Shown here piece by piece: positions 25,480 to 45,277 of a stretch of 64,000 bases of DNA (the stretch's first letter is position 1; every line of letters begins with the position of its first letter). Below the pieces are notes generated by a model. The model did not search any database. It was not told where the DNA came from and was given only the letters and a program-made list of their open reading frames with translations. The stretch spans positions 62,001 to 126,000 of the forward strand of contig JAHELC010000007.1 of the NCBI GenBank assembly GCA_024644405.1, written 5' to 3'. The translations under genes and the position numbers were made by a program. This DNA is from Nitrospinaceae bacterium. GTDB taxonomy: Bacteria > Nitrospinota > Nitrospinia > Nitrospinales > Nitrospinaceae.

Positions 25480-25627
25480 AACCCGTAATACCTTCAATTA
25501 ATTGAACTTTCTCGCATCACCTGTCAATTTCCTCCAACAATTAAAATTTTCTGCCCTATATTATTAAAGTAGCGTTTTCGCGGGATCGTTGCAGAACATT
25601 CGATTCCTCCACTCAATCAGGAACACC

Positions 25628-27271
25628 ATGGCGGCCATGAACAAACATCGTTTGCCTTTTGCCATCCAGGATCTGATCCGGATGCTGGAGGAGACGAAGG
25701 ACCTCACCCCGCGCAAGGCGCGCGAACTTTTGCTTTCGGCCAACCTGCAGGCGGAAGACCTCGAACCCTGGTCGGAGCTCGAACACCCGATCCGCGACAG
25801 CTACGGACGCAAACTGGTGTTTGACGGCGGCTATTTCGAAATGATGGTCATGTCGTGGACGCCGGGGGATTTCTCCGCCATACACGATCACGGCTATACC
25901 GAGTGGGGCGCAGTGCAGGTGTTCGGTCCGGCGGAGCACTCGGTCTTCCTGGTGCAGGACGGCGACATCACCACCCTGTCGCGCGCCGAAGTGAAACCCG
26001 GAGAAGTGATGTCGGTGGGGCATCAACTGGTGCACCAGCTGGGCAATCCGTCCAACACCAATTTCATGAGCTTCCACATGTACGGCTGTTACGAAAAGTC
26101 CAAGGGCGGCATCACCGCCGACGCGCGCATCTTCGATCTCGAAGAAAACACCATACAACGCACCGACGGCGGGGTGTTCTTTGCCATGCCGGAGAACCAG
26201 ATCAAGCGCCGCGAGCCGGGACCGCATCCCGATTACATCACCTGGCTGCGCAACGTCATCGAACTGAAAAACCGCATCGACCGGGTCCAGCGCCACATGG
26301 AGCTGCCGGCCGACCTGGAACAACGCGACGCCGGTGTTATTCAGAAACTGTGTGATACCTCCAACTGGCAACGATTTGTGAACGATCTGTTTCCGCACGT
26401 CGAACCCAATACCGGCCACATGAAGGACATGGGCTACTGGCGGCTGTTGCGCAACGAACTCATTGCCGCCGCCAAGGTGCAGAAGACCTTGTTGTTCCCG
26501 AACGACGAGGGCGATCCGTTTTACACCTACGCTGAGTTGTACGATGACGTCGTCGGCCAACCCTGCCTCGACGAATTCATCGCTGAATATTTAAAATTCG
26601 TTTTTGAAAAATACAAGATCGGGCGGGACACGGTGAAATTGCTCTCCATCGGTTGCGGTACGGGGATCGTGGAAGGTTACATGATTCAAAAACTCGGCCT
26701 GCCGGGCGATCGTTTGTTAGGCATCGACAAGTCGGAGGCCATGGTGCAGGTGGCGTCGCGCCGCATCACCGCCAAGGCGGAGGACATCCTGGCGCTGGGC
26801 GATCAAACGTGGGACGTCACTTACTGCGGACTCAACGTGTTTCAATATTTGTCGCCGGAGCAGTTGGACGAAGCGCTGGCGGTGACGGCACAGATCACCC
26901 AGCCCGGCGGATACTTTATCGGCGACTTCATCACGCCGGATCATATACGGACCTATCCGCACGTGATCCGGTCTAAGACCGGTAACGTCATCTCCCTTCG
27001 CAACCCGGTGCTGATCGAGGAAGGCAACTACACGTTTCAACAGAGCGAAATTTTAAACGTCAGTAAAAATAACGACCGGTTACTGATCACCAACGAAGGC
27101 AAACACCTGAGATTTCTGCCGCCGATGTGGCGCCTCCGGCAGGAATTTGAAAAAGCGTTCAAAGGCAAAGTGGATATTTATGATGCCGTGACGCTCCAAC
27201 CCATCGGCGACAAAGCCGACACCTGCCCCTCCACCCGCTACCTCCTCGTCGCGCAAAAAAAGCCAGCGTGA
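25628..27271 (+). CDS. Cysteine-dioxygenase-like cupin fused to a SAM methyltransferase
   Basis: 547 residues from the ATG at 25628 (AGGA upstream); an upstream TTG at 25589 is less likely. The N-terminal part (about 15-215) resembles thiol dioxygenases. It has the iron-ligand histidine pair in FSAIHDHGYTEWGAVQVF and a third histidine in GHQLVHQLGNPSNTNFMSFHMY, where the family has H-x-V-G-N. A helical linker follows (about 220-330). A class I methyltransferase domain follows (about 330-530), with motif I LLSIGCGTGIVEGY, an acidic residue in LLGIDKSEAM and the post-motif DVTYCGLNVFQYLSP. Type I cysteine dioxygenases oxidise a small thiol to its sulfinate. A fused methyltransferase suggests coupled modification of one substrate, but this is inference. 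The gene is convergent with uvrC and shares its terminator region. Confidence 0.8.
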   Translation: MAAMNKHRLPFAIQDLIRMLEETKDLTPRKARELLLSANLQAEDLEPWSELEHPIRDSYGRKLVFDGGYFEMMVMSWTPGDFSAIHDHGYTEWGAVQVFGPAEHSVFLVQDGDITTLSRAEVKPGEVMSVGHQLVHQLGNPSNTNFMSFHMYGCYEKSKGGITADARIFDLEENTIQRTDGGVFFAMPENQIKRREPGPHPDYITWLRNVIELKNRIDRVQRHMELPADLEQRDAGVIQKLCDTSNWQRFVNDLFPHVEPNTGHMKDMGYWRLLRNELIAAAKVQKTLLFPNDEGDPFYTYAELYDDVVGQPCLDEFIAEYLKFVFEKYKIGRDTVKLLSIGCGTGIVEGYMIQKLGLPGDRLLGIDKSEAMVQVASRRITAKAEDILALGDQTWDVTYCGLNVFQYLSPEQLDEALAVTAQITQPGGYFIGDFITPDHIRTYPHVIRSKTGNVISLRNPVLIEEGNYTFQQSEILNVSKNNDRLLITNEGKHLRFLPPMWRLRQEFEKAFKGKVDIYDAVTLQPIGDKADTCPSTRYLLVAQKKPA

Positions 27272-30819: not shown

Positions 30820-31290
30820 ATGCCGGATATATTTCCTGACGAATACGATAATTTTACGGAAAAACACTGGGAAGATATCATCATCCTGCTCACTTTAGTC
30901 AGTGTAGCGGCCATTCATTATTTGATATATTCCAAAATCGCTTTCCTGGATTTTTTCTATCTCTTGATCGTACTCGCCGGTTACTATGTGGGCAGGCGGC
31001 TGGCCATACTGGGTGCGGTGTTTGCCATTATGATGGTTTTTATTTTTGTGATGGTCGACCGAAGCTCATATTTTGAGGCCGGAAGCTTTTTGGACGCCCA
31101 TCTGGATCTCACCGTATGGGGAGGATTTTTGATTTTAGCCGCCTGGCTGATCGGTACCCTATCGGAAAAGAGGAAACATGAACTGAAAGAAAGCAACCGG
31201 CTCCGCCAGGAACTGGAATTATCCAACCAACGTTTGAATGAACGCAACCTCCAACTGGAAGAAGAATTAAAGAGCTCCCTGAAAACCTGA
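30820..31290 (+). CDS. Stand-alone membrane sensor module with coiled coil
   Basis: 156 residues from the ATG at 30820; the frame is open to a TTG at 30760, which looks like a promoter element. Three to four membrane helices lie between about 20 and 110. They match the N-terminal parts of the kinase at 31514 and the cyclase at 37784 nearly residue for residue over SKIAFLDFFYLLIVLAGYY, GRRLAILGAVFAI and LTVWGGFLILAAWLIGTLSEK. After the last helix comes a 45-residue coiled coil and then the protein ends, with no catalytic domain. It could be a regulator that pairs with its larger paralogs, or a decayed copy; the intact frame favours the former. Confidence 0.75.
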   Translation: MPDIFPDEYDNFTEKHWEDIIILLTLVSVAAIHYLIYSKIAFLDFFYLLIVLAGYYVGRRLAILGAVFAIMMVFIFVMVDRSSYFEAGSFLDAHLDLTVWGGFLILAAWLIGTLSEKRKHELKESNRLRQELELSNQRLNERNLQLEEELKSSLKT

Positions 31291-31330
31291 AGCTAGCTCC
31301 TCAGTCCTGAGTCAACCACGCCCAAAACAA

Positions 31331-31403
31331 GGGTAAGGGTCTTTCTCTCCCAGTCTTCCCCTAAAGACTTATTTTTCAATTATTTTTAATCAAACCCTTA
31401 CCC
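31331..31403. repeat. Inverted repeat upstream of the sensor kinase
   Basis: The 10-base arms GGGTAAGGGT (31331-31340) and ACCCTTACCC (31394-31403) are perfect complements, 53 bases apart, in the 223-bp gap between the short sensor gene and the kinase gene. It could be a weak terminator or a protein site. A TATAAT at 31478-31483 lies just before the kinase start. Confidence 0.5.
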
Positions 31404-31513
31404 GAATTAAGTTATAACCTGAATCAATTTTTTCCCAAAAATACCTGAAAAGTCATTTTTATCGGGAACTTATACCGTATAATAGTATTTACAATTATTT
31501 CAAATGTAATAAA

Positions 31514-32737
31514 GTGGACCCTCTCAAAAAATACCTACTCAAACATGTCCAGGATGCCATTGTCCTTTCCATATTGGCAGGGGCGATCTTCGTCAATTAC
31601 TTTGTGTATTCCTCCAAAATCGCTTTCCTGGATTTCTTCTATCTTCTGGTCGTGTTGGCGGGGTACTACATCGGCAAGCGGTTCGCCGTGCTGGGAGCGT
31701 TTTTTGCCATCCTGATCGTCTGGGTCTTCATCCTGGCGGACAAAAACGAATACTACTCGGCCAGCACTGCCTCCCAGGCCAACCTCAATCTTACAGTCTG
31801 GGGAGGATTCCTGATCCTGGCGGCGTGGCTGATCGGCACCCTGTCTGAAAAACTGCGGCTCGAGTTGCAGCACACCAACCGGCTCCGGGAAGACCTGGAC
31901 CACGAACGGGAGTTGTTAAGCATCTCCAACCGCCAGCTGCGAAATTACAGTGTCCGCCTGGAAGAACGCGTCGAGGAACGTACTCAGGAATTAAAACGCA
32001 GCAACCAGGAGCTGATGGATTTTGCCGCCGTCGCTTCGCATGACTTGCAGGAACCCTTGCGCAAAGTCGTGATGTTCGGTGACCGGCTGGAAGAACAAAT
32101 TCCCAAAGGGGAAACCAAAAGCCGGGACTACCTGGATCGCCTGCGCAATTCTGCACGTCGAATGCAGGGATTTATCGAGGCCCTGCTGAAACTGTCCAGT
32201 GTGTCTTCCGGCGCAGAACCCTTCCAGCCCGTGGACCTGCACAAACTGACTCTGGAAGTGTTGGATGATCTGGAAGCCCGGATCACCCATACCAAGGCGC
32301 AGGTGAAAATCGATAAGCAGTTACCGACGCTGGAAGCGGATGCCACACAGATGCGGCAGTTGATTCAAAACCTGATCGGCAATGCTCTCAAATATCATCA
32401 GAAAGACATTCCCCCGGTGGTGGAGATCACCAGCCGTCCGTTGCGTGACGGGTTCTGGGAGATCATGGTCAAGGACAACGGCATCGGCATCGAAGACCAC
32501 CAGATCAACCTGGTCTTTCATCCCTTCGAAAGAGCCAATAGCGGGACACTATTTGAAGGTACCGGTATGGGACTCGCCATCTGCAAAAAAATCGTGGACC
32601 GCCACGGCGGATCCATCCATGTGGTCAGCCAACCTGAAAAAGGCACTTCGTTCATCATCATTCTTCCAGAAAAGACCAAGGAAAGAAGAAAAAATCCCAC
32701 CGAGCTCCCAGAATTCAGCGACATTCAACCCGGTTGA
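31514..32737 (+). CDS. Membrane sensor histidine kinase
   Basis: 407 residues, GTG start. The sensor module has three to four helices (about 14-115) with SSKIAFLDFFYLLVVLAGYY and NLTVWGGFLILAAWLIGTL. A coiled coil (about 115-165) leads into a phytochrome-type dimerisation domain with the phospho-histidine in AVASHDLQEPLRKV near 176. The ATPase domain has the N box NLIGNALKYH, G1 DNGIGI, F box FHPFERA and G2 GTGMGLAICKKI, so it is complete. No response regulator is adjacent; single-domain regulators such as the one at 60812 are possible partners. The downstream purM is convergent. Confidence 0.9.
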   Translation: MDPLKKYLLKHVQDAIVLSILAGAIFVNYFVYSSKIAFLDFFYLLVVLAGYYIGKRFAVLGAFFAILIVWVFILADKNEYYSASTASQANLNLTVWGGFLILAAWLIGTLSEKLRLELQHTNRLREDLDHERELLSISNRQLRNYSVRLEERVEERTQELKRSNQELMDFAAVASHDLQEPLRKVVMFGDRLEEQIPKGETKSRDYLDRLRNSARRMQGFIEALLKLSSVSSGAEPFQPVDLHKLTLEVLDDLEARITHTKAQVKIDKQLPTLEADATQMRQLIQNLIGNALKYHQKDIPPVVEITSRPLRDGFWEIMVKDNGIGIEDHQINLVFHPFERANSGTLFEGTGMGLAICKKIVDRHGGSIHVVSQPEKGTSFIIILPEKTKERRKNPTELPEFSDIQPG

Positions 32738-32827
32738 TCCCTCCAGGTTTCATCAGGACTTTCGAAAATCCAACGCCGGAACGAACCGCTCCTGTCGTCC
32801 CAAGCAGATTCCAGGGCAACCAATAAT

Positions 32828-33922
32828 TTATGAGATGAAATTCGATCCGGAGCTTTTCAGGTTCTTGGAGGGGATGAACACTTCCTTGCCGGTCCAGGGT
32901 TCCACCTGGCCGATACCATGGCAGGAGATGCCGTATTCCTTGCAGATATCATGGACCTGATCGGCATCGTTGGCATGGTCGACGATCACGCAGAAGCCGG
33001 TGCCCATGTTGAACACGGCGTACATTTCAGCATCGCTGATTCCACCGGCTTCTTGAATCAACTCGTAGACGGGGAGCAGGTCGGGCAGGGGATCGATCAC
33101 GAAACGAATGTTGTCAGTTTGCACGCGCGTGAGGTTGGTGAGTCCGCCGCCGGTGATATGCACCATGGCCCGCATATCGATCCCCGCTTCCAGCATTTTC
33201 ATGACCGGCTGAACATAGATACGGGTCGGCTCCAGCAGTTCCGCGCCGAGGGTACGGCCCAGCGAAGCGTCGTACTGGTTGACCTTTTCCTTTTGTTCTT
33301 CCGGCGTTTCGCCGAGCAACACTTTACGCGCCAGGGTCAGGCCGTTGGAATGCACCCCGCTGGCGGCAAGTCCCAGGATCAGGTTGCCGGGCTGGATATT
33401 CTGGCCGGTGTTGATTTGATCGAGTTTCACATGGCCGATGGCGGCGCCGATGAGGTCGATGCCGGTGATGATTTCCTTCACCTGCGAAATCTCCCCGCCG
33501 GAAATACTGATCTGCGCCTGTTTCGCGCCTTCGGCGAGGCCGCGACCCAGTTCCTCGAACACTTTCGGGTCGGTGTGCGAACAGCCGATGTAGTCCACCA
33601 TGCTCACCGGCCGTGCGCCGACGCAGATGAGGTCGTTGACGTTCATCGCAATGCAGTCGATGCCGAGCGTGTCGTACTGGTGCATCAACTCGGCGACGAT
33701 CACCTTGGTGCCCACGCCGTCGGTGCAGAACGCGATGCCCTCGCCGTTGCCCATATCGATGACGTTGGCGAAGTAACCGATATCGGCTTTCAGCGGGTAG
33801 CGCTCGCTGAACTGCCGCGTTGGCAGGATGTGCTTGAGGATGCCGTCCAGCGCCGATTCCGCGCCGCTCTGGCTGACGCCGCTTTGTTCGTACTGCGATG
33901 TTTTTCCGGTTGGGCTGGACAT
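32828..33922 (-). CDS. purM: Phosphoribosylformylglycinamidine cyclo-ligase
   Basis: AIR synthetase, fifth step of purine synthesis, in the cytoplasm. 364 residues from the ATG at 33922 (MSSPTGKTSQYEQ). The frame runs to 34063 but the extra 47 residues are not family-like and would nearly reach gdhA. Signatures: FANVIDMGNGEGIAFCTDGVGTK near 50-70, DCIAMNVNDLICVGARPVSMVDYI near 85-108, SGGEISQ near 150, LGLAASGVHSNGLTLAR near 195, VHITGGGLTNLTRV near 270, and the C-terminal GTGFCVIV. No purN follows. It shares its strand with gdhA, 103 bp upstream. Confidence 0.95.
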   Translation of the reverse strand: MSSPTGKTSQYEQSGVSQSGAESALDGILKHILPTRQFSERYPLKADIGYFANVIDMGNGEGIAFCTDGVGTKVIVAELMHQYDTLGIDCIAMNVNDLICVGARPVSMVDYIGCSHTDPKVFEELGRGLAEGAKQAQISISGGEISQVKEIITGIDLIGAAIGHVKLDQINTGQNIQPGNLILGLAASGVHSNGLTLARKVLLGETPEEQKEKVNQYDASLGRTLGAELLEPTRIYVQPVMKMLEAGIDMRAMVHITGGGLTNLTRVQTDNIRFVIDPLPDLLPVYELIQEAGGISDAEMYAVFNMGTGFCVIVDHANDADQVHDICKEYGISCHGIGQVEPWTGKEVFIPSKNLKSSGSNFIS

Positions 33923-34025
33923 GACTCGGCTCGAGGACAGGATAAGGATTTCTGGCGCTACTATAGCATTATTGCAGTCAGGTTGGAATTTTTTGGAGAC
34001 GGGCAAAACAGCGTTTACCCGAAGT

Positions 34026-35450
34026 TTACGGATATACGCCGCGGTCCTGGTAGCTGATGGCAATTTTTTCTATGGCGATGGCCATGGCGGCAATGCGGTA
34101 GGATTCAATTTTTTCGTGGGACCAGAAACGGTCGCGGATCTGTTGAAACGCCTCCCGCATGGAATCGTCCAGACCGGTACGGACAAAGTCCAGTTCGTTC
34201 GGCCCATTACACAGCTCCTCTGAAATTGCAGGAGGGATTTTATGACCGTTGGATTCCAAGACTTTGAGCAACAGATCGTTCTGGTTGACATCGTACCGCC
34301 GCGTGAGACGCCCGAAACGGATATGCGACAGATTCTTGATCCATTCAAAATAGGAGACAATCACCCCGCCGGCATTGAGATAAATATCGGGAATCATCAC
34401 CACGCCTTTTTGTCTTAAAATAGCGTCGGCGCCAAAAGTAACCGGTCCGTTGGCCGCCTCGGCGATCAGTTTGGCTTTAATGCGCGGGGCGTTTTCCAAA
34501 TGGATAACCCCTTCCAGAGCCGCAGGAACCAGAATATCGCATTCTTCCTCTAGAATCGCGTCACCGTTCTCAAAAAACTGGGCATCGGGAAATCCTTTCG
34601 CGACTCCATGCTCCTTTTTGTAAGTATTGATTGTTTCCACGCTGAGACCGTTGCGGTCCATCAACGCTCCATCGCTTTCGATGATGCCGATGATTTTGGC
34701 GCCGTCTTCGGATTCAAGTATTTTGGCTGTATGATAACCCACGTTGCCGAGGCCCTGGACAATAACGGTTTTGCCTTCGAGTGTGCCTTCGAGGCCGGCT
34801 AGCTTTTTATCTTCTGCATGACGGAAAAATTCGCGGATGCCATACACCACGCCACGGCCCGTGGCTTCCGTTCGACCGGGGATACCACTCAAACTGAGGG
34901 GTTTGCCGGTGACACAACCGAGACCATTGATATCATCCGTACGGTGCTGCATATAGGTGTCGGCGATCCACGCCATTTCCCGGGGACCGGTCCCCATGTC
35001 GGGCGCAGGAACATTAATTGCAGGATTGATGTAATTCTTCTTGATCAATTCAAAGGCAAAGCGCCGGGTAATGCGCTCCATGACGGCATCGTCATATTTC
35101 TTGGGATCGACAACCAACCCGCCCTTGGATCCGCCGTAGGGAACATCGACCAGCGCACACTTGTAAGTCATCAGCGCGGCCAGAGCCTCCACCTCATCCT
35201 GGGTCACCAGGGGTGAAAAACGGATGCCGCCTTTAGTGGGAAGCTTGTGCTCGCTGTGGACGGCGCGCCAGCCGATAAAACTTTCGATCTTGCCGTCGAT
35301 TTTTACGGGGAATCGGACCTGGTAGACGTTATAAGCCCCTTTAAGGACGTACGCGAGCCCGCCGCTGATTTCAAGGGTCGCGGCGGCGATATCAAATACG
35401 AGGTTGACGTTTTCGCGAAAACTCTTTTCCTGATAAACCGTGGTTACCAT
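34026..35450 (-). CDS. Glu/Leu/Phe/Val dehydrogenase, probably glutamate dehydrogenase
   Basis: 474 residues. The substrate-binding domain has GWRAVHSEHKLPTKGGIRFS and the catalytic lysine in DVPYGGSKGGLVVDP near 105-120. PAPDMGTGPREMAWIAD follows. The Rossmann domain carries VIVQGLGNVGYHTAKIL near 235 and IAEAANGPVTFGAD near 340. The family reversibly deaminates an amino acid using NAD(P). The long linker with NPAINVPAPDMGT and the overall pattern fit glutamate dehydrogenases, so it probably links 2-oxoglutarate with ammonium alongside glnA. Cofactor preference is not clear by eye. Confidence 0.93.
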   Translation of the reverse strand: MVTTVYQEKSFRENVNLVFDIAAATLEISGGLAYVLKGAYNVYQVRFPVKIDGKIESFIGWRAVHSEHKLPTKGGIRFSPLVTQDEVEALAALMTYKCALVDVPYGGSKGGLVVDPKKYDDAVMERITRRFAFELIKKNYINPAINVPAPDMGTGPREMAWIADTYMQHRTDDINGLGCVTGKPLSLSGIPGRTEATGRGVVYGIREFFRHAEDKKLAGLEGTLEGKTVIVQGLGNVGYHTAKILESEDGAKIIGIIESDGALMDRNGLSVETINTYKKEHGVAKGFPDAQFFENGDAILEEECDILVPAALEGVIHLENAPRIKAKLIAEAANGPVTFGADAILRQKGVVMIPDIYLNAGGVIVSYFEWIKNLSHIRFGRLTRRYDVNQNDLLLKVLESNGHKIPPAISEELCNGPNELDFVRTGLDDSMREAFQQIRDRFWSHEKIESYRIAAMAIAIEKIAISYQDRGVYP

Positions 35451-35637
35451 GCATCACTCCGAATCCGTACCGCACCCATTGAATTTGCTTCACATACCCC
35501 TATGCTAAACCCAAACGAGGACGAGGGGTAGTATAAATTCAACAGCTTTCACGAATTTATACAGTTTTTTCAGCGGGTGATAGCTGGATTTTGAAGGTAT
35601 TCCTATATATGATCGGTTCCATAGAAAGGGGAGAGGC

Positions 35638-36057
35638 ATGAAACAGGCGACGCACGAGATATCCATCAAAACCCATGGGCGGGGGCTGATCAACATCAAC
35701 GATGCTATCGTCTCCTGGGCACAGGGGCAGGGGATGTCCACGGGACTGCTCACGGTGTTCATCCGGCACACGTCGGCTTCGCTGGTGATTCAGGAGAATG
35801 CCGACCCGGATGTGCTGACCGACCTGAACGCGTTTTTGAACCGAATGGTGCCGGACGGCGACCCGCAATACCGGCACTCCGCCGAGGGAGACGACGACAT
35901 GCCGGCGCATATCCGTTCGGCCCTCACCCAGACGCAGATTTCCGTACCATTGGTCAACGGGAAGCTCGCTCTTGGGACCTGGCAGGACATTTACCTGTTC
36001 GAGCACCGGACGGCCCCCCACCACCGGCAGGTGGTTCTGCATCTGTCCGGGGAATGA
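35638..36057 (+). CDS. YjbQ/UPF0047 family protein
   Basis: 139 residues, the family length. HTSASLVIQENADPDVLTDL (44-63), YRHSAEGDDDMPAHIRSAL near 81-99 and GTWQDIYLFEHR near 117-128 are the signatures; the conserved histidines would form a small trimeric active site. A weak thiamin-phosphate synthase activity has been described for members, but the true role is unsettled. Its ATG follows GGGGAGAGGC at good spacing. Divergent from gdhA. Confidence 0.93.
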   Translation: MKQATHEISIKTHGRGLININDAIVSWAQGQGMSTGLLTVFIRHTSASLVIQENADPDVLTDLNAFLNRMVPDGDPQYRHSAEGDDDMPAHIRSALTQTQISVPLVNGKLALGTWQDIYLFEHRTAPHHRQVVLHLSGE

Positions 36058-36071
36058 AGTGATTTAAAACC

Positions 36072-36150
36072 CAGATTCTTTGTCGCTATCGCTCCTCAGA
36101 ATGACAATAAAACCTCATATTGTGTCATCCTGAACGAAGTGAAGGATCTC
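36072..36150. repeat. Imperfect palindromic intergenic repeat
   Basis: The left arm reads AGATTCTTTGTCGCTATCGC then TCCTCAGAATGACA. The right arm reads TGTCATCCTGAACGAAGTGA then AGGATCT. They are imperfect reverse complements and could fold into a long hairpin. Elements with the core GTCAT-CTGA-CGAAG-GAAG-ATCT are common between genes in diverse bacteria and behave as dispersed repeats. It lies between yjbQ and the TPR gene. Confidence 0.65.
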
Positions 36151-36229
36151 GGTTTTCATTCCTGTAGCTTTACAAACTTACCTCTCACTCCTAGAATAAA
36201 GAGATAACTCGTTTGACTGTGGAGAGAGC

Positions 36230-37144
36230 ATGCCGCGCCCGGGAATCGACAAATACAAGGATATTTACCAGCCCGAGGACATCCCTTCGTCCAAGCCGCC
36301 GCCGGAACCTTCCCGCAACAAATTCTTCAGGGCGGGTGCCCTGGTGCTTCTCGCCGTCCTACTCATTGGAATCCCTGTATATTATTTCAGCGAGCGCGGA
36401 ATCGGTGGATTTCAGGAGGATGAGGATTCCATTCAGGTTGAAAAGGGCAAGGAGATCATTGCCGTCCAGCAACTGGTGAAGGAGGGCAAACTGGTACGTG
36501 CGTTGGATGTGATTCAGCCCCAGTACAAACTGTATCCTGATAACGCGGAGTATGTATCGACCGGTGCCTGGGTCCATTTCAAGATGGAGAATTACCGGCG
36601 CGCGTTAAAACTATCGGAAGCGGCGATCAGGCTGGATCCCGGCAGAGCCCGGGACCATGCCATATTGGGAGCAACTCATCTTTTTTTCAAACAATACAAA
36701 CCGGCCCTTGAGACATCGTTGCAAGCAATCCAACTCGACCCGGATCAATCGCTGGCCTATCTCACCATAGGAGAGATCTATTTAAAGGAGAACGACGCCG
36801 AGCGGGCCCTGCCCGCGCTCAAGCAGGCGGGACGCCTGGATCCGGACAATGCACGGGTGTGGACCCGGTTGAGTTCGGCCTTCATCAAACTCGAACAATG
36901 GGGCAAAGCGCAACTCTGTGCTGAAAGGGCGCTGGAGCTGTCGCCGGATGCACCCGGCGTGCATTTCAACCTGGCCATGATATATTACAAGCGGGAACAG
37001 GGACCGCAGGCCGTGGAGCATATGCAACGGGCGGAAGATTTGTATCAAAAGGCCGGTCAGTTTGAATGGGCAGGAAAGGCCCGGCAGAACAAGGAACTTA
37101 TCATCCGGCAATTCAAACTGCGGCCTGAAGATATTATTCCCTGA
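36230..37144 (+). CDS. Membrane-anchored TPR protein
   Basis: 304 residues. A proline-rich N-terminal cytoplasmic segment (1-32) is followed by one membrane helix (about 33-53, GALVLLAVLLIGIPVYYF) and about six tetratricopeptide repeats (70-285). Typical helices are YVSTGAWVHFKMENYRRALK, ILGATHLFFKQYKPALE, LTIGEIYLKENDAERALPAL and FNLAMIYYKREQGPQAVEH. The repeats probably face the periplasm and bind proteins. AGAGAGC precedes the ATG. It runs with the next small TPR gene, 44 bp away; function unknown. Confidence 0.85.
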   Translation: MPRPGIDKYKDIYQPEDIPSSKPPPEPSRNKFFRAGALVLLAVLLIGIPVYYFSERGIGGFQEDEDSIQVEKGKEIIAVQQLVKEGKLVRALDVIQPQYKLYPDNAEYVSTGAWVHFKMENYRRALKLSEAAIRLDPGRARDHAILGATHLFFKQYKPALETSLQAIQLDPDQSLAYLTIGEIYLKENDAERALPALKQAGRLDPDNARVWTRLSSAFIKLEQWGKAQLCAERALELSPDAPGVHFNLAMIYYKREQGPQAVEHMQRAEDLYQKAGQFEWAGKARQNKELIIRQFKLRPEDIIP

Positions 37145-37188
37145 AATAATATTTACCTTTCACATTTTCAATCGAAATCCGGACTGTC

Positions 37189-37542
37189 ATGAGCGACAAA
37201 GAATTTGAACTCAGGTTAACATCCAAACCTCCCCCGACCGATCCGGCGGAAATCCATTTTAAAAAAGCCTGGCAACATCGAAAATTCAAACGGCACCAGG
37301 AAGCGGTCGACGAGTTTCTAAAATCCCTGGAATACAACCCGGATAAAGGCGCCACCCACTTCAACCTGGGCCTGGTTTACGATCAATTGGGCAAGGGAGG
37401 CCTGGCTCTGGCTCATGTTCAAAAAGCGCTGGCGCTGTTTGCAACGGAACAAAAACCCTCCAATAATGCCGCCGCCCAAAGTCTGCACAAAAGACTGCTC
37501 AAAAAATATCCCGATTCAGCCACGGACACTCAAAAAAAATAA
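37189..37542 (+). CDS. Small TPR protein
   Basis: 117 residues, with about two tetratricopeptide units (FKKAWQHRKFKRHQEAVDEF and FNLGLVYDQLGKGGLALAHV) and a charged tail. There is no signal peptide, so it is probably cytoplasmic. It follows the membrane-anchored TPR gene by 44 bp and may be its partner. No specific family recognised. Confidence 0.75.
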   Translation: MSDKEFELRLTSKPPPTDPAEIHFKKAWQHRKFKRHQEAVDEFLKSLEYNPDKGATHFNLGLVYDQLGKGGLALAHVQKALALFATEQKPSNNAAAQSLHKRLLKKYPDSATDTQKK

Positions 37543-37664
37543 AGCCCACACTAAGAGCCAATCACCCTCCTTCAAGCCCATCCGACACTGGTTGAGTCTT
37601 TGAAAATCCTTCGGTTATATAGGTTTACACCATCCGCCTTGAGGGGAGTGATGAATTCATTCTA

Positions 37665-37696
37665 TTAAAAATACATTATTTGTAAATGTATTTTAA
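37665..37696. repeat. AT-rich hairpin upstream of the cyclase/HD-GYP gene
   Basis: Perfect 10-base arms AAAATACATT and AATGTATTTT with a 7-base loop. It lies between the small TPR gene and the cyclase gene, just before a TATAAT (37709-37714). It could be a terminator for the TPR genes or an operator for the cyclase gene. Confidence 0.5.
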
Positions 37697-37783
37697 CCCC
37701 ATTAAGGGTATAATAATGGACTACATAAATAATGAAATCACGTCTTTGGTTTCCTGAAGAGTCCTTGGGGGAGGCAAGAATTA

Positions 37784-39808
37784 ATGGAAAAGCTCAAGCG
37801 GTACGTATTCGACCATTTTGAAAGCCACTTCATCTTCACGATTTTGGTCAGCGTTATCCTGATCAACTTCTTCGTATATTCAAAAATCGCGTTTCTCAAT
37901 TTTTACTATCTCCCCATTATGCTCGCGGGTTACTACCTGGGTCGTCGCACGGCGGTGCTGGGCGCGTTTTTCACGATTCTCATGGTCTGGGTATTTGTTC
38001 TGGCCGATCTGGATCACTATTACGCCCTTGAAGAAAAATCATTTCACTTGTACTTCCACCTTACGGTTTGGGCCGGATTTCTGATTCTGGCGGGGTGGAT
38101 CATCGGCGGTTTAAAAGAAAAGCTCCGTTTCACCGACAAACTGCGGGAAGAATTGGCGCAGGAAAAACAGATGCTGGACATCACCAACAAGCGGTTGAAT
38201 GAATACAGCAACCAACTGGAATCCAAAGTATCCGAAAGAACCCAGGAACTGGAGCGATCGCAGGGAAATGTCGAGTCTTTAAAAACCCGCGTGGAAGACA
38301 CATTATTTTCGGTGATGGATTCCAAAGTGGCGCGGTTGATGATCGAAGGCAAACTGCGCAACGAAAAACGGCGGATCTCCGTTTTATTTTCAGACCTCAA
38401 GGACTTCACCGTATATTCTGACCAGAATCCGCCGGAGCAGGTGATCAACGAATTAAATTCGTATCTCGGTGAAATGGAAGATTGCATCACCCAGTTTTAC
38501 GGTCATATCGACAAGTACATTGGTGACGGGATCATGGTGGAATTTGGCGCGCCGGTCAAATATAAAAACCATGCGGTGCTGGCGGTCCTTGCGGGACTCA
38601 CCATGCAGGAGAGAATGAAAAAAACCCATACTCAGTGGAAAATGCGGGTGGGAATCGCTACCGGAGTGTCCGTGCTGGGTCTTTTGGGATCGAAACGCAA
38701 AAGTTACTCCTGTATTGGAAATACCGCCAACCTGGCTTCCCGCCTTGAAGAATTATGCGAGCCCGGCGAAGTTTTCATCGATCACAATACTTACATGATT
38801 GTTCAACAGTATTTTCACGTCAGCCGGATTCGTTCCGTGTATGGCAAGCGGGAAGCGGACAAAATTGTGGAGGCTGAAATCCTATCCCTTGAAAACCTTC
38901 TGAATCAAAATCCGAACGACCTGCAAATGCTGTATGCGCTGGGGCAGGCGTTCTACAAAAAGCGTGCTGCCAGCGCTGCTATGGAAGTCTTTCAAAAGAT
39001 ATTGAAAATCAACCCGGACCATGTAGAAGCCCGCGAGGCTTACGATGAAGCAGAGAAAAAGCAGGACGAGTTCGAAAAAATAGCCATCCGCGGGAAACAG
39101 GAGCGTGTGTCGATTTACCGGGTCATCGGACTCAAGGATCCTTTGATGGATCGCAATAAAATTCCCAGGTACTTCTACGACAAGTATGCAGCGGTCACTT
39201 CCAACATGAAATTGCCGTTGGAACTGATTCATGCCTCCGAGGCGGTCGATGGCACTCTGGGACACGGCAAAACTGTGGCGCTGCTTTCATATGCGCTGGC
39301 CGAAAAACTGGGTCTGTCTCACAAGGAAAAAGAAGAATTGTTGATCGCGGGATATCTGCATGATTTGGGAAAAATCATTATCCCCCATGAAATCCGGGGC
39401 ACCGACCGGCCCTTGTCAAAATACGAGCAGGCATTGGTCTACCAGCACCCCCTGGAAAGCGTCCGGATGATCCAACAGCTCGGTTACACTTCGGAAATAC
39501 TCCTCAAATATGTGAAGAGCCATCATGAACATTATGATGGGTCGGGTTATCCGGATAGATTAAAGGGAGAGCAAATTCCCCTGGGTGCGCGGATTTTGAG
39601 TATCGCGAACGATTTTGATGTCCTGACCAGCCACAGGAAAAATCAGGCAGGATTGAATTATCAAAACGCCATCAAGGAATTACAGAGGAAAACCAAGGCA
39701 GGTAAGTATGATCCGCAGTGTCTCGGAGCATTAGTCCAGTTGATGAATTTGCAAACCACGCCTTCCCGCTGGCTCGCCTTTCCGATGAAAACTTCATCCC
39801 GGCATTGA
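37784..39808 (+). CDS. Membrane sensor-nucleotide cyclase-TPR-HD-GYP signalling protein
   Basis: 674 residues, ATG after GGGGGAGG. Parts in order: the sensor module (helices about 14-115) shared with the genes at 30820 and 31514; a coiled coil (115-185); a class III nucleotide cyclase (about 195-365) with metal aspartates in SVLFSDLKDFT and KYIGDGIMVEFG and the N/R pair in GNTANLASRLE; TPR-like helices (380-445); and an HD-GYP phosphodiesterase (about 485-650) with AGYLHDLGK and SHHEHYDGSGYP. HD-GYP domains cleave cyclic di-GMP. The residues that usually fix adenine (D-Y-T) read S-Y-S here, so the cyclase product is uncertain. One chain may therefore couple a cyclic mononucleotide to cyclic di-GMP. 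Confidence 0.88.
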   Translation: MEKLKRYVFDHFESHFIFTILVSVILINFFVYSKIAFLNFYYLPIMLAGYYLGRRTAVLGAFFTILMVWVFVLADLDHYYALEEKSFHLYFHLTVWAGFLILAGWIIGGLKEKLRFTDKLREELAQEKQMLDITNKRLNEYSNQLESKVSERTQELERSQGNVESLKTRVEDTLFSVMDSKVARLMIEGKLRNEKRRISVLFSDLKDFTVYSDQNPPEQVINELNSYLGEMEDCITQFYGHIDKYIGDGIMVEFGAPVKYKNHAVLAVLAGLTMQERMKKTHTQWKMRVGIATGVSVLGLLGSKRKSYSCIGNTANLASRLEELCEPGEVFIDHNTYMIVQQYFHVSRIRSVYGKREADKIVEAEILSLENLLNQNPNDLQMLYALGQAFYKKRAASAAMEVFQKILKINPDHVEAREAYDEAEKKQDEFEKIAIRGKQERVSIYRVIGLKDPLMDRNKIPRYFYDKYAAVTSNMKLPLELIHASEAVDGTLGHGKTVALLSYALAEKLGLSHKEKEELLIAGYLHDLGKIIIPHEIRGTDRPLSKYEQALVYQHPLESVRMIQQLGYTSEILLKYVKSHHEHYDGSGYPDRLKGEQIPLGARILSIANDFDVLTSHRKNQAGLNYQNAIKELQRKTKAGKYDPQCLGALVQLMNLQTTPSRWLAFPMKTSSRH

Positions 39809-39873: not shown

Positions 39874-40425
39874 TTATTCCTGCTCTCTGTGCTTGAATTG
39901 GAACCGGCGAACCATGACTGCGAAAACAATGACAGCCGCCATGCCCACGGACAGGATCAATCCATCAACGATCAGAACCAGGGATATCGGGGTATTGATG
40001 AGCAGCCATTCCATCACCTGGTGGAGACCCACCCAGGAATCCGGATGTTGCATCCAGGCTCCGAGCGCAGTGCCGTCAAACAGAAAAGTGAACACCATCA
40101 TGAGGGGCATGGCGTTCCACACACCGTCCTGCAACCAAACTACGGTCTGGTATCCCAAAAGGCCAAAGCCCGAAAGGAATACCGTAAAACACAACAACAA
40201 TCCCAGCAGACTGAGATTACCAAATACATAATCCACCACGGTAAACCGCTTGAATAAAAACTTCAGTTCCTTCCGGGTCGCCTCGTAGGCGGTAACCAAT
40301 CCCTTTTCGAAAACAAAACGGCAGGTATGCAAAGCGTCCAAAATAAACAGACGGGCGGCTTCCATAGCCCCCAGCATTTCTCCAACGCGTTTGGATTCGT
40401 CATATGCTTTATCGTTCTGTACCAT
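39874..40425 (-). CDS. Membrane protein of unknown function
   Basis: 183 residues, ATG after GGAGACC. A charged amphipathic N-terminal region (1-65) is followed by three hydrophobic segments (about 67-95, 103-125, 140-172) and a short basic tail. No family recognised. It is on the minus strand beside the cyclase gene and has a good -35 element at 40477-40482. Confidence 0.65.
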   Translation of the reverse strand: MVQNDKAYDESKRVGEMLGAMEAARLFILDALHTCRFVFEKGLVTAYEATRKELKFLFKRFTVVDYVFGNLSLLGLLLCFTVFLSGFGLLGYQTVVWLQDGVWNAMPLMMVFTFLFDGTALGAWMQHPDSWVGLHQVMEWLLINTPISLVLIVDGLILSVGMAAVIVFAVMVRRFQFKHREQE

Positions 40426-40451
40426 GAGGTCTCCTTCCCGGCTCTGAACCT

Positions 40452-40482
40452 ATAATAACCCGTTCCACGAAACCGATGTCAA
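40452..40482 (-). promoter_or_regulatory. Candidate sigma-70 promoter of the 183-aa membrane protein
   Basis: A perfect TTGACA (minus strand, 40477-40482) is followed after 18-19 bases by TTATTA/TATTAT. Spacing is slightly long. It lies about 30 bp upstream of the ATG. Confidence 0.45.
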
Positions 40483-40605
40483 GCAGGGGTTTATTCCTCA
40501 GCCTACCGCCAGCGGTGAGGATAAGTCAAATATTCTCTCATCCTTGGGATGAGCCCGGGAGGGGGAAAGGTTCTTTAATCTTCGGGCGGGGTAAACGCCT
40601 GTAAA

Positions 40606-41178
40606 TTAATCACATCGGGAGTTCACGATACGGGCCAAACGCAGCAGCTTGGAGCTGATCCGCAGATTTTCCCGCTGCGACGCTTCAATATTGACTTCAA
40701 ACCGGACTTTGCCGCTTTTCAGGTAAAAATTGATGATCCCGCATTGCTCGGCAAAACCGGTGGTGTCCCCGATGGTAAGAATACCGGTGCCTTTGAGGGT
40801 ACGGAGAATGGACCGCACGCGTCCATTTTCGGAGGGATTTACAAAAATAATATGGTACTGGTCAACCTTATTTAAATTGTGGACCCGGGAAACCTCGAGG
40901 TTTCTTTTCTGAGCATTTTTCCCATTCAAATCCATCAGGGGATTGTCGATGGGCCCGGTGCCCAGAATACCGATCCGCAAGGGGGAGTCCTCTGTTTCAA
41001 ACGCCAGAAGGGGCCAATCGATAAATTGTGTGAAGTTGTGGATGAATGCCGCCTTGACTTCATATTCCACTGAAGCGGCATAGGCGGACTCCGCCGCCAG
41101 AACCTGGCCTGCCGGAGGCGCACACCAGCCCCAGAGGAGCAATCCCACCGCAATGAAATGTCGCAACCGTTTATTCAT
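40606..41178 (-). CDS. YfiR/DUF4154 family periplasmic protein
   Basis: 190 residues with a signal peptide (about 8-28, ending VLAAES). The family pattern is YEVKAAFIHNFTQFIDWP (39-56), LRIGILGTGPI near 66, HIIFVNPSE near 110, TIGDTTGFAEQCGIINFYL near 135 and the end LRISSKLLRLARIV. YfiR itself is a periplasmic repressor of a diguanylate cyclase; many DUF4154 genes sit beside TonB-dependent receptors and signalling enzymes. Here it lies 30 bp downstream of two such receptors on the same strand, presumably in their operon. Confidence 0.9.
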   Translation of the reverse strand: MNKRLRHFIAVGLLLWGWCAPPAGQVLAAESAYAASVEYEVKAAFIHNFTQFIDWPLLAFETEDSPLRIGILGTGPIDNPLMDLNGKNAQKRNLEVSRVHNLNKVDQYHIIFVNPSENGRVRSILRTLKGTGILTIGDTTGFAEQCGIINFYLKSGKVRFEVNIEASQRENLRISSKLLRLARIVNSRCD

Positions 41179-41207
41179 CCAACCACACCTTAATAAAAAA
41201 CCTTCCC

Positions 41208-43220
41208 TTAATAACGCAAAGTAACTTTTCCATAGACACTGAGTGGCACCAGTGTCGGTTGAACACCACCCACCAAAACATTAAACTCCTGGTGTCTCCG
41301 TTCCAGTAAATTCTGGCCGGTCACGCTGAGCTCCACATGCTCCGACGCATGCCAGCCCAACCGCAGATCCAATCGAAAATATTCTTCAATACCCAAATCC
41401 GGCAGTTCATCCACATAATTGAGCGCCGCATCCAATTCCCAACCTTTCGACAAATCCAGATAGGACCTGAAGTTAGCCTGGAACTGGGGGCTGGCTCCAT
41501 TGGCCGCGGTAGAAGTTGTATCCTGACTGGCAGGATCGAGAAACAGATCCAGCTCGAACCAGGTAAACGCCACCTTGATGCGCCAGAAATCAAACACGTC
41601 CCAGGTGGAAGCCACCTCGACACCCCAGGCTTCCCCCTCCATCAAATTCTGGTTTTGGGAAGTGATAAACGGGGGCAACGGATTAATCGGTTCTGCCGTC
41701 AGCAGGTCATTGTACACGTTGTAAAAAGTGGCAATATCCAGAAACAGCTTGTCAGTAACCTTCACCCGGTATCCCAATTCGTACGCCAACAGGTTTTCAG
41801 ATTTTAATTCCGTATTGCCGATCAGTTGAAATGTGGGCCCACCGGGAGGAATGGTTAATGCATTCAGAGTGAAACTGTCTTCAGTCCGCGAAGGGGTCCG
41901 CACCGCTCGCGATGCCGAAGCCCATGCCGTGTGATTGTCGTTGGGGGTCCACAACACGCGGCCACTCGGTTGCACCTCCCAGCCGGAAAACGAGTTGTAC
42001 CCCAGCTTGGCGCCCAAGGTGAATTGGAGATGTTTGGGAATCAACGTGATTTGATCCTGAACAAAACCGTTCACGAAATAATTGGTGTCCTGGTCGGGAT
42101 TAAACGAGATGAGGAAAGTACTTTCGAGTTCGTCCACCATAAGCCTGCCGTTGACTCCCCAGACCACATCGTGTGCCGCGCCGACCGGCAACCGGTGCTG
42201 GACGTCCAGATCGAAAATATTGATATTCTGGCCAAAAATCTGGCCTTCCCGGTTCTCGCTGGTGTAATAGGCCTGCACCTTTAAATCCGAACGGTCCGAA
42301 AATTTCCGCGTCCACCGGGCCAGAAAATTTCCGCCGTTAACTGACTCTTTATCCAGAATGGTGGACATCACCCCCACAGCCACAGGACCGACCACCTGGA
42401 CGTTGGATGTGCCGTCATATATATCTCCCTGGATCGTGATCTGGCTGGTCTCAGACATATCCCAGTCCATGCGGAAACCCCCGCGCACGGCGGTCCAGTC
42501 GTCATTGCCGTCCACTCCATTCAGACCATCGAAGGAATCGCGGTTGAACCATTTTCCGTAGACCCGGTAATGGGCGCTATCACCCATCCTGGCGCCGTAC
42601 CGCATGCTGGCGAATCCCTGCTCCACATTACCTCCTCCCGCGGACACCAGGCCCCCGGTGCTGTTACCGGCATTCTTGGTAATAATATTGATCACGCCGT
42701 TCACCGCATTGACGCCCCACACCGTGGCTCCCGGACCGCGAATGACTTCAATGCGTTCGACATCTTCCAACAACGTGTCCTGGGTGTCCCAAAAGGTGCC
42801 CGAGAACAGGCCGGTATAGACACTGCGTCCATCGATCAGCACCAGCAGTTTCCGCGCAAAAATATCATTGAAACCCCGGATACTGACCGCCCATTGGTTG
42901 GCGGTCACACGCGCCACTTCCACGCCGGGCACCATGCGCAGAACTTCCGGGATATGAGTGGCACCGGAGCGGCGGATATCTTCCTGGGTAATCACAAAGA
43001 CCGCCGCAGGAGCTTGCGCCGCCTTTTCCGGTTTCTTCGAAACCGAGGTGACTTCGATATCCATCAACTGTTCCAGCGACAGCTTGGTCAGATCCGCTGG
43101 CAGGCGCCGGACTTCTGAACTATTCGGGGAGCCCCTGGAAAATCCAGCCAGCAACAGCAGGCAAACCGACAGGCATAACCCGAAGTTCCATTTATTTTTT
43201 GTGAAATTTGTTCCAGTCAA
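41208..43220 (-). CDS. TonB-dependent receptor, second of a tandem pair
   Basis: About 670 residues. The frame is open to 43316 but that would overlap the previous gene by 82 bases, so a TTG at 43220 with AAAGGT upstream is the likely start, giving a signal peptide around LCLSVCLLLLAGFSR. LSLEQLMDIEVTSVSKK leads into the plug domain (TQEDIRRSGATHIPEVLRMV, IRGFNDIFARKLLVLIDGRS, GPGATVWGVNAVNGVINIIT), then a 22-strand barrel ending LSVYGKVTLRY. It is clearly paralogous to the next gene. Such receptors take up siderophores, cobalamin or other ligands; this plug class is often coupled to signalling. Ligand unknown. Confidence 0.9.
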   Translation of the reverse strand: MTGTNFTKNKWNFGLCLSVCLLLLAGFSRGSPNSSEVRRLPADLTKLSLEQLMDIEVTSVSKKPEKAAQAPAAVFVITQEDIRRSGATHIPEVLRMVPGVEVARVTANQWAVSIRGFNDIFARKLLVLIDGRSVYTGLFSGTFWDTQDTLLEDVERIEVIRGPGATVWGVNAVNGVINIITKNAGNSTGGLVSAGGGNVEQGFASMRYGARMGDSAHYRVYGKWFNRDSFDGLNGVDGNDDWTAVRGGFRMDWDMSETSQITIQGDIYDGTSNVQVVGPVAVGVMSTILDKESVNGGNFLARWTRKFSDRSDLKVQAYYTSENREGQIFGQNINIFDLDVQHRLPVGAAHDVVWGVNGRLMVDELESTFLISFNPDQDTNYFVNGFVQDQITLIPKHLQFTLGAKLGYNSFSGWEVQPSGRVLWTPNDNHTAWASASRAVRTPSRTEDSFTLNALTIPPGGPTFQLIGNTELKSENLLAYELGYRVKVTDKLFLDIATFYNVYNDLLTAEPINPLPPFITSQNQNLMEGEAWGVEVASTWDVFDFWRIKVAFTWFELDLFLDPASQDTTSTAANGASPQFQANFRSYLDLSKGWELDAALNYVDELPDLGIEEYFRLDLRLGWHASEHVELSVTGQNLLERRHQEFNVLVGGVQPTLVPLSVYGKVTLRY

Positions 43221-43234
43221 TATTATATTTACCT

Positions 43235-45277
43235 TTAATATTCTAAAACCACTTTGCCAAACACCGAACGCTCGACCAGATTGCGATCGTTCGTTTGAAT
43301 ACGGTCGTCGCCCCATTCCTGGTGCTGGCTATCCAGCAGGTTCTGGCCAACAAGACTGACTTCGACATTTTGGAAGGGGTGCCATCCCAGTCTCAAATCC
43401 AGCCGGAAATAGCTCTTTACCTGCTGGCTCTCCAGGGTATCGACGTAATACAACATCTGGTCAAACTCCCAGTGCGAGGGCAGGTCCATGTGCGAGCGGA
43501 GGTTCCATTGAAACTCGGGATCGTTGCCTTCGAAACCCAAGACATTCTGATCGGTACTGATCGGATCCTTTCGTAAATCCACTTGCAGCCAGGTAAAGGC
43601 ACCGTTCAACCGCCACCAGTCCGCCACATCCCAGGTCGCCGCCAGTTCCACGCCGTAGGTTTCGCCATCGAGGCGGTTGCGGGACACGATGGGGAGTTCT
43701 ACAAAAGTGGGGTTGACAATCGGTGCTTCCACTTCAAAACTGTGGCCGTCCCGGTAGATGTTGGCGAATGCGGCCACGTCAAAAAATAATTTTTCATGCG
43801 GTCGCACCCGGTATCCCACTTCCGTGGCCAGCAGGTTTTCAGATTCAAAATCCTTTTGCCCCTGAATCACGGCCACAGATGGACCGGGAGCCACCGCCGC
43901 ATTGAAACGGCCTGAATCCCCGGAGCGGGACGGGGTACGCACCGCGCGGGAAACCGCCGCCCATACGGTGTGCCGATCGTTAGGCGTCCATGCCAGGCGT
44001 GCGTTGGGCTGAATTTCAAAACCGGTAAAGTTGTTGATGGAAAACTTGGATCCGATCGTAAAATAGAGTTCGTTCTCTATCAGGGCGATCTTGTCCTGGA
44101 TAAAGGCATTGGAAATAAAATTAAGTTTGCTGTCCGGGAAGTAACTGATGCCAATGCTGTTTTCAAATGCATCTTGAATATAACGGTGCCCCAGGCCCCA
44201 CAGGATTTCATTACGGTTTCCCCACTGGAAGCGATGTTGAAATTCGATATCGTAGGTATCAACCGCCAGTTCCTGTAACACCCGGCTGTTCCGGTGGTCA
44301 CGGTTGTAATAAAATTGCAGGGCCATATCCGAGACGTCAGAAAAGCGGTGCTTCCATCGAGAGATGAAATTGGCGGTCCGGACCTGACCGTCCCCCACCA
44401 GATCCCCCATGGTGGGCGCAAACGACAGGGAGGTGACGGCGTCTGAAGTTTTACCGGCGAACTCTCCGACCATCACGTCGCCCTGGAAGGTGAAGGAGTT
44501 GGATTCCGAAGCGTCCCAGTCCAACCGCATACCGCCGCGACCCGTTTCGAATTCGTCCGGTGCCGGGTTCCCCTGCAAATCATCCAGGTTGTTGCGGTTG
44601 TAATATTTTCCCCAAACCCGGACCGCCGCGTTGTCGCCGATTCTTTCTCCATAACGGATCGAGCCGATGAAGCGGTCCAGATTGCCGCCACCGGCACTGA
44701 CTTGTCCGCCTGTGGTTTTGTGCGCATTTTTGGTGATGATGTTGATGACACCGTTCACCGCGTTGACACCCCACAAGGCGCCGCCGGGACCACGGATCAC
44801 TTCGATACGCTCGACGTCTTCCAGGACCATGTCCTGCTCATCCCAGAACACCCCGGCAAACACATGGGTATACACGGAACGGCCGTCGATCAGAACCAAC
44901 AGCTTGTTGGCAAAACGGGAATTGAATCCACGTGCGGTAATCGCCCAGGTGCTGGAATCGATCTGGGCCACCTGCACTCCAGGCACCATGCGGAGGGCTT
45001 CGGGGATAGTGTTGGCGCCTGAGCGGCGAATATCTTCCTGGGTCAGGACAAAAATTGCAGAGGGAGCTTTGGAAAAATCTTCTTCGCCTTTGGAGACGGA
45101 TGTCACCTGAATGTCCATCAACTCTTCAAGCGTCAACCGGCTCAGATCGGCAGGAACATCAGACAGACTTTCCGCATATGATAGAGCAGGAGCCAATAGG
45201 TGGAACAAAATTCCGTACAGAACCCCGAAAAAACACAACAGAGCTCCAGGCTCTTTAAAACGGTTTAAAGAGATCAT
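43235..45277 (-). CDS. TonB-dependent receptor, first of a tandem pair
   Basis: 680 residues, ATG. Signal peptide (about 10-35, ending ALSYAES), then LTLEELMDIQVTSVSKG, plug domain (TQEDIRRSGANTIPEALRMV, ARGFNSRFANKLLVLIDGRS, GPGGALWGVNAVNGVINIIT) and a barrel ending RSVFGKVVLEY. It leads a three-gene unit with the second receptor and the YfiR-like gene. No tonB, exbB or exbD is in the window, so energy would come from genes elsewhere. The N-terminal extension is too short for a signalling (STN) domain. Confidence 0.93.
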   Translation of the reverse strand: MISLNRFKEPGALLCFFGVLYGILFHLLAPALSYAESLSDVPADLSRLTLEELMDIQVTSVSKGEEDFSKAPSAIFVLTQEDIRRSGANTIPEALRMVPGVQVAQIDSSTWAITARGFNSRFANKLLVLIDGRSVYTHVFAGVFWDEQDMVLEDVERIEVIRGPGGALWGVNAVNGVINIITKNAHKTTGGQVSAGGGNLDRFIGSIRYGERIGDNAAVRVWGKYYNRNNLDDLQGNPAPDEFETGRGGMRLDWDASESNSFTFQGDVMVGEFAGKTSDAVTSLSFAPTMGDLVGDGQVRTANFISRWKHRFSDVSDMALQFYYNRDHRNSRVLQELAVDTYDIEFQHRFQWGNRNEILWGLGHRYIQDAFENSIGISYFPDSKLNFISNAFIQDKIALIENELYFTIGSKFSINNFTGFEIQPNARLAWTPNDRHTVWAAVSRAVRTPSRSGDSGRFNAAVAPGPSVAVIQGQKDFESENLLATEVGYRVRPHEKLFFDVAAFANIYRDGHSFEVEAPIVNPTFVELPIVSRNRLDGETYGVELAATWDVADWWRLNGAFTWLQVDLRKDPISTDQNVLGFEGNDPEFQWNLRSHMDLPSHWEFDQMLYYVDTLESQQVKSYFRLDLRLGWHPFQNVEVSLVGQNLLDSQHQEWGDDRIQTNDRNLVERSVFGKVVLEY

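Follow-up and report, generated by a model that had tools for sequence, protein, structure and literature searches.

The window (the whole stretch of 64,000 nucleotides analysed here, from a Nitrospinaceae bacterium) carries three neighbouring signalling genes that share one membrane module, whose sequence points to a divergent, unnamed branch of the DUF4118/MASE1-like four-helix input group and to a distant cousin of DUF4118. The explanation that we favour as a whole, with moderate confidence, is that this DUF4118-related branch would be a dimeric four-helix membrane input module that switches varied outputs. The three genes, P0001, P0002 and P0003, were found where an earlier note on this DNA had placed them (Table 1), each opening with a module of about 110 residues that leads into a coiled helix. 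The outputs described there (none, a histidine kinase and a cyclase-TPR-HD-GYP chain) agree with the Pfam scan, which detected HisKA and HATPase_c in P0002 and Guanylate_cyc, TPR and HD_5 in P0003, all above cut-off, and no domain above cut-off in P0001. P0002 is a histidine kinase by its two domains and by its H, N and G boxes, with the H-box ASHDLQEPL, the N-box NLIGNALKYH and the motifs DNGIGI and GTGMGLAIC; no response-regulator gene was recognised among its neighbours. The start context of P0001 is common to L014 and L017.

Table 1. Module-bearing proteins of the source genome and their parts
Feature	Location	Coordinates	Strand	Remarks
P0001: stand-alone module and coiled helix, without output domain	window	30820..31290	+	156 aa, ATG start
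P0001 predicted four-helix membrane module	window	30853..31185	+	low-confidence model
P0002: module, coil, HisKA and HATPase_c histidine kinase	window	31514..32737	+	407 aa, GTG start
P0002 predicted four-helix membrane module	window	31532..31867	+	
P0003: module, coil, class III nucleotidyl cyclase, TPR and HD-GYP	window	37784..39808	+	674 aa, ATG start
P0003 predicted four-helix membrane module	window	37802..38137	+	
P0003 class III cyclase domain	window	38366..38827	+	Guanylate_cyc, 90 bits
P0003 HD-GYP domain	window	39260..39718	+	HD_5, 121 bits; metal-site residues present
Second cyclase-TPR-HD-GYP protein	contig C32			700-aa open frame
Second stand-alone protein, longer N-terminus	contig C34			156 aa from its ATG

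Identity between the modules was 58% for P0001 and P0002, 52% for P0001 and P0003 and 55% for P0002 and P0003. When residues were shuffled only inside the hydrophobic and polar classes, identity fell to 19-20% on average with a maximum of 28%, and BLASTP aligned P0001 with P0003 across 140 residues with E = 2e-42. The likeness is therefore not one of hydrophobicity alone, a doubt that the earlier note had raised about its own claim, and the same membrane module indeed opens the three signalling proteins. Regarding the motifs described in that note, the SKIAF start is shared, although P0002 has one additional serine (YSSKIAF), and the AD-x3-YY loop is found in P0002 and P0003 but reads VD-x3-YF in P0001. 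The idea that this acidic and aromatic loop is the sensing face found no family-wide support among 70 homologues, in which the first aromatic alone is retained: nearly all of them have Y or F at Y80, Y81 is mostly other than Y, and at D76 most Nitrospinota have D or N and the Desulfobacterota a non-acidic residue, with P at 77 instead. The most conserved positions (P0002 numbering) are L39, Y51, G54, R56, L60, A62, W96, F99, L100, G108, L110 and E112, and two motifs are nearly invariant, the G-x-R that lies between helix 2 and helix 3 and the W-G-x-F-L of helix 4. A common sensing or switching element, if there is one, more likely sits in the helices than in the loop.

Two further copies of the module lie outside the window (Table 1), which makes five in the source genome; another match there, on contig C9, was rejected (E 0.03, within an unrelated 629-aa frame). 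A separate scan of named contigs was queried with the whole kinase; its relatives there place the source genome in Nitrospinota, and past its first five loci the scan returned mostly kinase-domain relatives. A profile built from the five copies found the module in 20 of 77 Nitrospinota genomes, and a broader profile in 54 of 395 sampled Desulfobacterota genomes (E <= 0.001), 11 of these 54 being weak (best E above 1e-10). At E <= 1e-5, it was also present in 13 of the 149 sampled Acidobacteriota genomes and in two of the 349 sampled Pseudomonadota genomes, with a strong match in one of these two. These samples are subsets with many incomplete genomes, the counts vary with the profile used, and the phylum labels of the last three samples were taken from their central loci (L048, L034 and L068). 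The proposed local sensory family is thus not purely local, as the module occurs in no fewer than three further phyla, and what was found is a widespread unnamed family, in four phyla, beside diverse outputs. These comprise no output at all, histidine kinases (two orthologue groups), a PAS kinase, a hybrid kinase that has a receiver, GGDEF, HD-GYP by itself and cyclase-TPR-HD-GYP. The idea of one sensor-type module serving several outputs is supported. No paper that deals with this module, or with fusions of a cyclase to HD-GYP, was found in the literature searched, and a plasmid search gave no place that covers most of P0003, the matches listed corresponding to its cyclase region only.

P0003 qualifies as a class III nucleotidyl cyclase both by its Guanylate_cyc score and by its catalytic residues. 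In an alignment with solved bacterial cyclases, the catalytic D, D, K, S, N and R are present, that is, the two metal Asp, the substrate Lys and the transition-state Asn and Arg, with Ser replacing Thr/Asp. The cyclase is probably active and, judging from the Lys and Ser, of adenylate type. The HD-GYP part carries LHDLGK, HHEHYDGSGYP, QHP and NDFD, and with these residues intact it is a putative HD-GYP phosphodiesterase. The Desulfobacterota homologues L204-L209 retain the active site of the cyclase and have a broken HD dyad (EDIGK, RDIGK, ADIGK, QDMGK), and therefore the cyclase is the constant output of the module-cyclase-TPR-HD-GYP architecture, in which the HD-GYP domain may often be only a regulator. 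Furthermore, L118 (G020, frame from 1462) falls inside the second kinase orthologue group, yet it is fused to HD-GYP, an output swap inside one orthologue group.

With respect to family affiliation, no member scored individually passed any Pfam cut-off, and NCBIfam gave no consistent family for the module. Seventeen of 22 diverse members matched DUF4118 (PF13493) below cut-off (25.5 bits at best among the homologues listed, vs 28.4; 12.3 bits for P0001 and 17.4 bits for P0002, P0003 not being among the listed matches), and 13 of the 22 matched the C-terminal third of MASE1 (PF05231; best 28.1 bits, cut-off 29.8). Apart from this third of MASE1, no family was matched as consistently as DUF4118. 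In hhalign comparisons, the module gave a probability of 94% (E 1e-7) with a DUF4118 set of seven sequences, 97% (E 5.5e-11) with ten YYLPI-type kinase sensors and at most 0.8% with reversed-sequence controls, the sets being small and self-assembled, not Pfam seeds, and the E-values those of single comparisons. With this profile result and the below-threshold matches, homology to DUF4118 is detectable over the domain. Some proteins (G110:C481, G150:C29, G157:C2) are also found both by the DUF4118 model and by the profile of the module. The only sequence match in the PDB was the KdpD membrane domain 2ksf, collinear and weak (E 0.84), which was lost with a narrower profile (alignment A3) and is not significant by itself; a PDB fold search with the first AlphaFold model returned nothing better than E 1.8.

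Because the DUF4118 matches are below cut-off and that of 2ksf is weak, we file the module as a DUF4118-related branch and not as a member. It is a distant relative of the known DUF4118, not something wholly new, and the novelty check suggested in the earlier note therefore comes out half-way: there is distant homology to DUF4118, but below the Pfam cut-off and with no accepted family. The impression that the module recalls the DUF4118 helices of KdpD with other motifs was accurate. Both would consist of four short-looped helices within about 100 residues ahead of a coil and a signalling output, whereas the module has its own Y-x2-G-x-R and W-G-x-F-L and no FFFVPP following helix 3, a motif absent from the module alignment A4 and present in L174-L176. 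An ordinary DUF4118 member missed by the current Pfam model would account for the 17 sub-cut-off matches, for the collinearity of P0002 over the whole domain (DUF4118 positions 3-102 of 107), for the hhalign result and for the intermediate kinase and GGDEF sensors, which form a continuum with some just above the DUF4118 cut-off. However, no individually scored member reaches 28.4 bits, neither FFFVPP nor the N-terminal KdpD and USP domains occur in P0001-P0003, the YYLPI sensors are nearer to the module than DUF4118 is, and the C-terminal third of MASE1 scores equal or better for several members; we consider plain membership possible, and clearly less likely than a separate branch. Like MASE1, such a branch is a modular input of c-di-GMP enzymes, matching the C-terminal positions ~196-298 of 299, but it has only about one third of the MASE1 length, and of the full ~300-residue domain only the last ~100 positions were matched, below cut-off. 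This third of MASE1 is apparently akin to the four-helix group. MASE1 positions ~195-298 are collinear with the module in many members, which hints at a DUF4118-like unit inside MASE1. The module links three kinds of sensor region, those of DUF4118, of the MASE1 C-terminus and of the YYLPI type, which may belong to a single group.

P0001, the stand-alone copy, has the module of the kinase as its sister, and selection maintains it. A tree of 70 modules, built on a short alignment and with many forks unresolved, places the P0001 group in one clade (99/91) with the P0002 kinase group and with the kinase L100 of a same-family relative. Separate orthologue groups are formed by P0003, by the C32 cyclase, by the second kinase and by the second stand-alone proteins. 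The grouping of P0001 with the P0002 module, its absence in L016 and L013 and a copy in G015 that has lost the coil would be expected if P0001 were the decaying remnant of a duplicated kinase. This is very unlikely, since P0001 shows dN/dS of 0.11-0.20 against its orthologues, occupies the same position in G017 and G018, where its locus is syntenic, and is paralleled by a second stand-alone group (the C34 copy and four orthologues) likewise under purifying selection (0.13-0.29); the low dN/dS of both groups indicates maintained genes. A stand-alone copy stands beside a kinase with the same module in three species, and in G015 the copy directly precedes a contig-end fragment matching the first third of the module, which is consistent with the start of a kinase. 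P0001 plausibly acts as a modulator of the adjoining kinase. The hetero-oligomers suggested in the earlier note may form, given that this copy is a conserved tandem sister of that kinase. A more ambitious proposal, that it is a dedicated hetero-oligomeric regulator pairing by its helices and coil with the kinase modules and perhaps with the cyclase-HD-GYP modules, so that phosphorelay, cAMP and c-di-GMP outputs would read one shared membrane signal, seems to us rather doubtful. Cross-talk between cAMP, c-di-GMP and phosphorelay signalling becomes testable in two cases, the conserved stand-alone copy next to a kinase that has the same module, and the single module that drives a cyclase as well as an HD-GYP domain.

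The P0001 model has helices at residues 8-36, 40-57, 59-79 and 90-155, the last one continuous, at low confidence; the AlphaFold models were built from 12 close sequences (pLDDT 63 and 60) and were used for helix count only. The four predicted helices, the continuous last helix and the positive G-x-R turn suggest a topology with both termini in the cytoplasm. The module would cross the membrane with four helices joined by very short loops. The conserved G-x-R/K turn that connects helix 2 to helix 3 would face the cytoplasm, the loop of ~10-15 residues between helices 3 and 4 would lie in the periplasm, and helix 4 would continue as one helix into the coiled coil that reaches the output domain. 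It most likely dimerises and, since it lacks a periplasmic domain, would most likely sense a signal located at the membrane or inside it (the state of lipids or ions, or a partner in the membrane) rather than a soluble periplasmic ligand. Such a signal, or the binding of a partner to the helices, would alter helix packing, helix 4 and the coil would then rotate or shift, and this movement would switch the dimeric output, be it kinase, cyclase, diguanylate cyclase or HD-GYP. By analogy only, DesK-type sensor kinases, as described in PMC8301901, also lack a periplasmic domain and use their helices to read a signal and pass it to the cytoplasmic part, although DesK has five helices and the module a predicted four. 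In this regard, the membrane helices of E. coli KdpD were reported to be a positioning clip that is not essential for K+ sensing (PMC2714519), so anchoring in the membrane and dimerisation could be the main roles of the module, with sensing taking place elsewhere or through partners that bind it. The GTPase partner RdcA, for instance, targets the MASE1 of DgcE (PMC6510439), a partner-controlled membrane input that resembles the mechanism proposed here as well. Such a role would fit the missing periplasmic domain and the module alignment, in which none of the conserved positions is a ligand-type His or Cys, and it keeps substantial weight because the equivalent helices of KdpD are described as a clip. 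It is nevertheless the less probable account in our judgement, as specific residues are conserved well past hydrophobicity across phyla and outputs and output-less stand-alone copies have been selected for in two separate groups. As an unnamed and countable family of input modules, it joins the many modular membrane sensors that lack a known stimulus.

Lastly, a neighbourhood of 13 kb is conserved in G017 and G018, comprising a transporter, P0001, P0002, an AIRS-like gene, glutamate dehydrogenase, UPF0047, two TPR genes, P0003, a small membrane protein, a YfiR-like gene and a TonB receptor. On the reverse strand of the window, positions 39874-45277 encode, besides a small membrane protein that has no Pfam match, a protein resembling YfiR/HmsC (DUF4154) and two TonB-dependent-receptor-like proteins in a row; synteny with G017 and G018 holds for the first part of this cluster. 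Upstream, at 25589-27271, lies a 560-aa protein with a C-terminal methyltransferase domain, whose N-terminal part resembles, by eye only, a cysteine-dioxygenase-type cupin.
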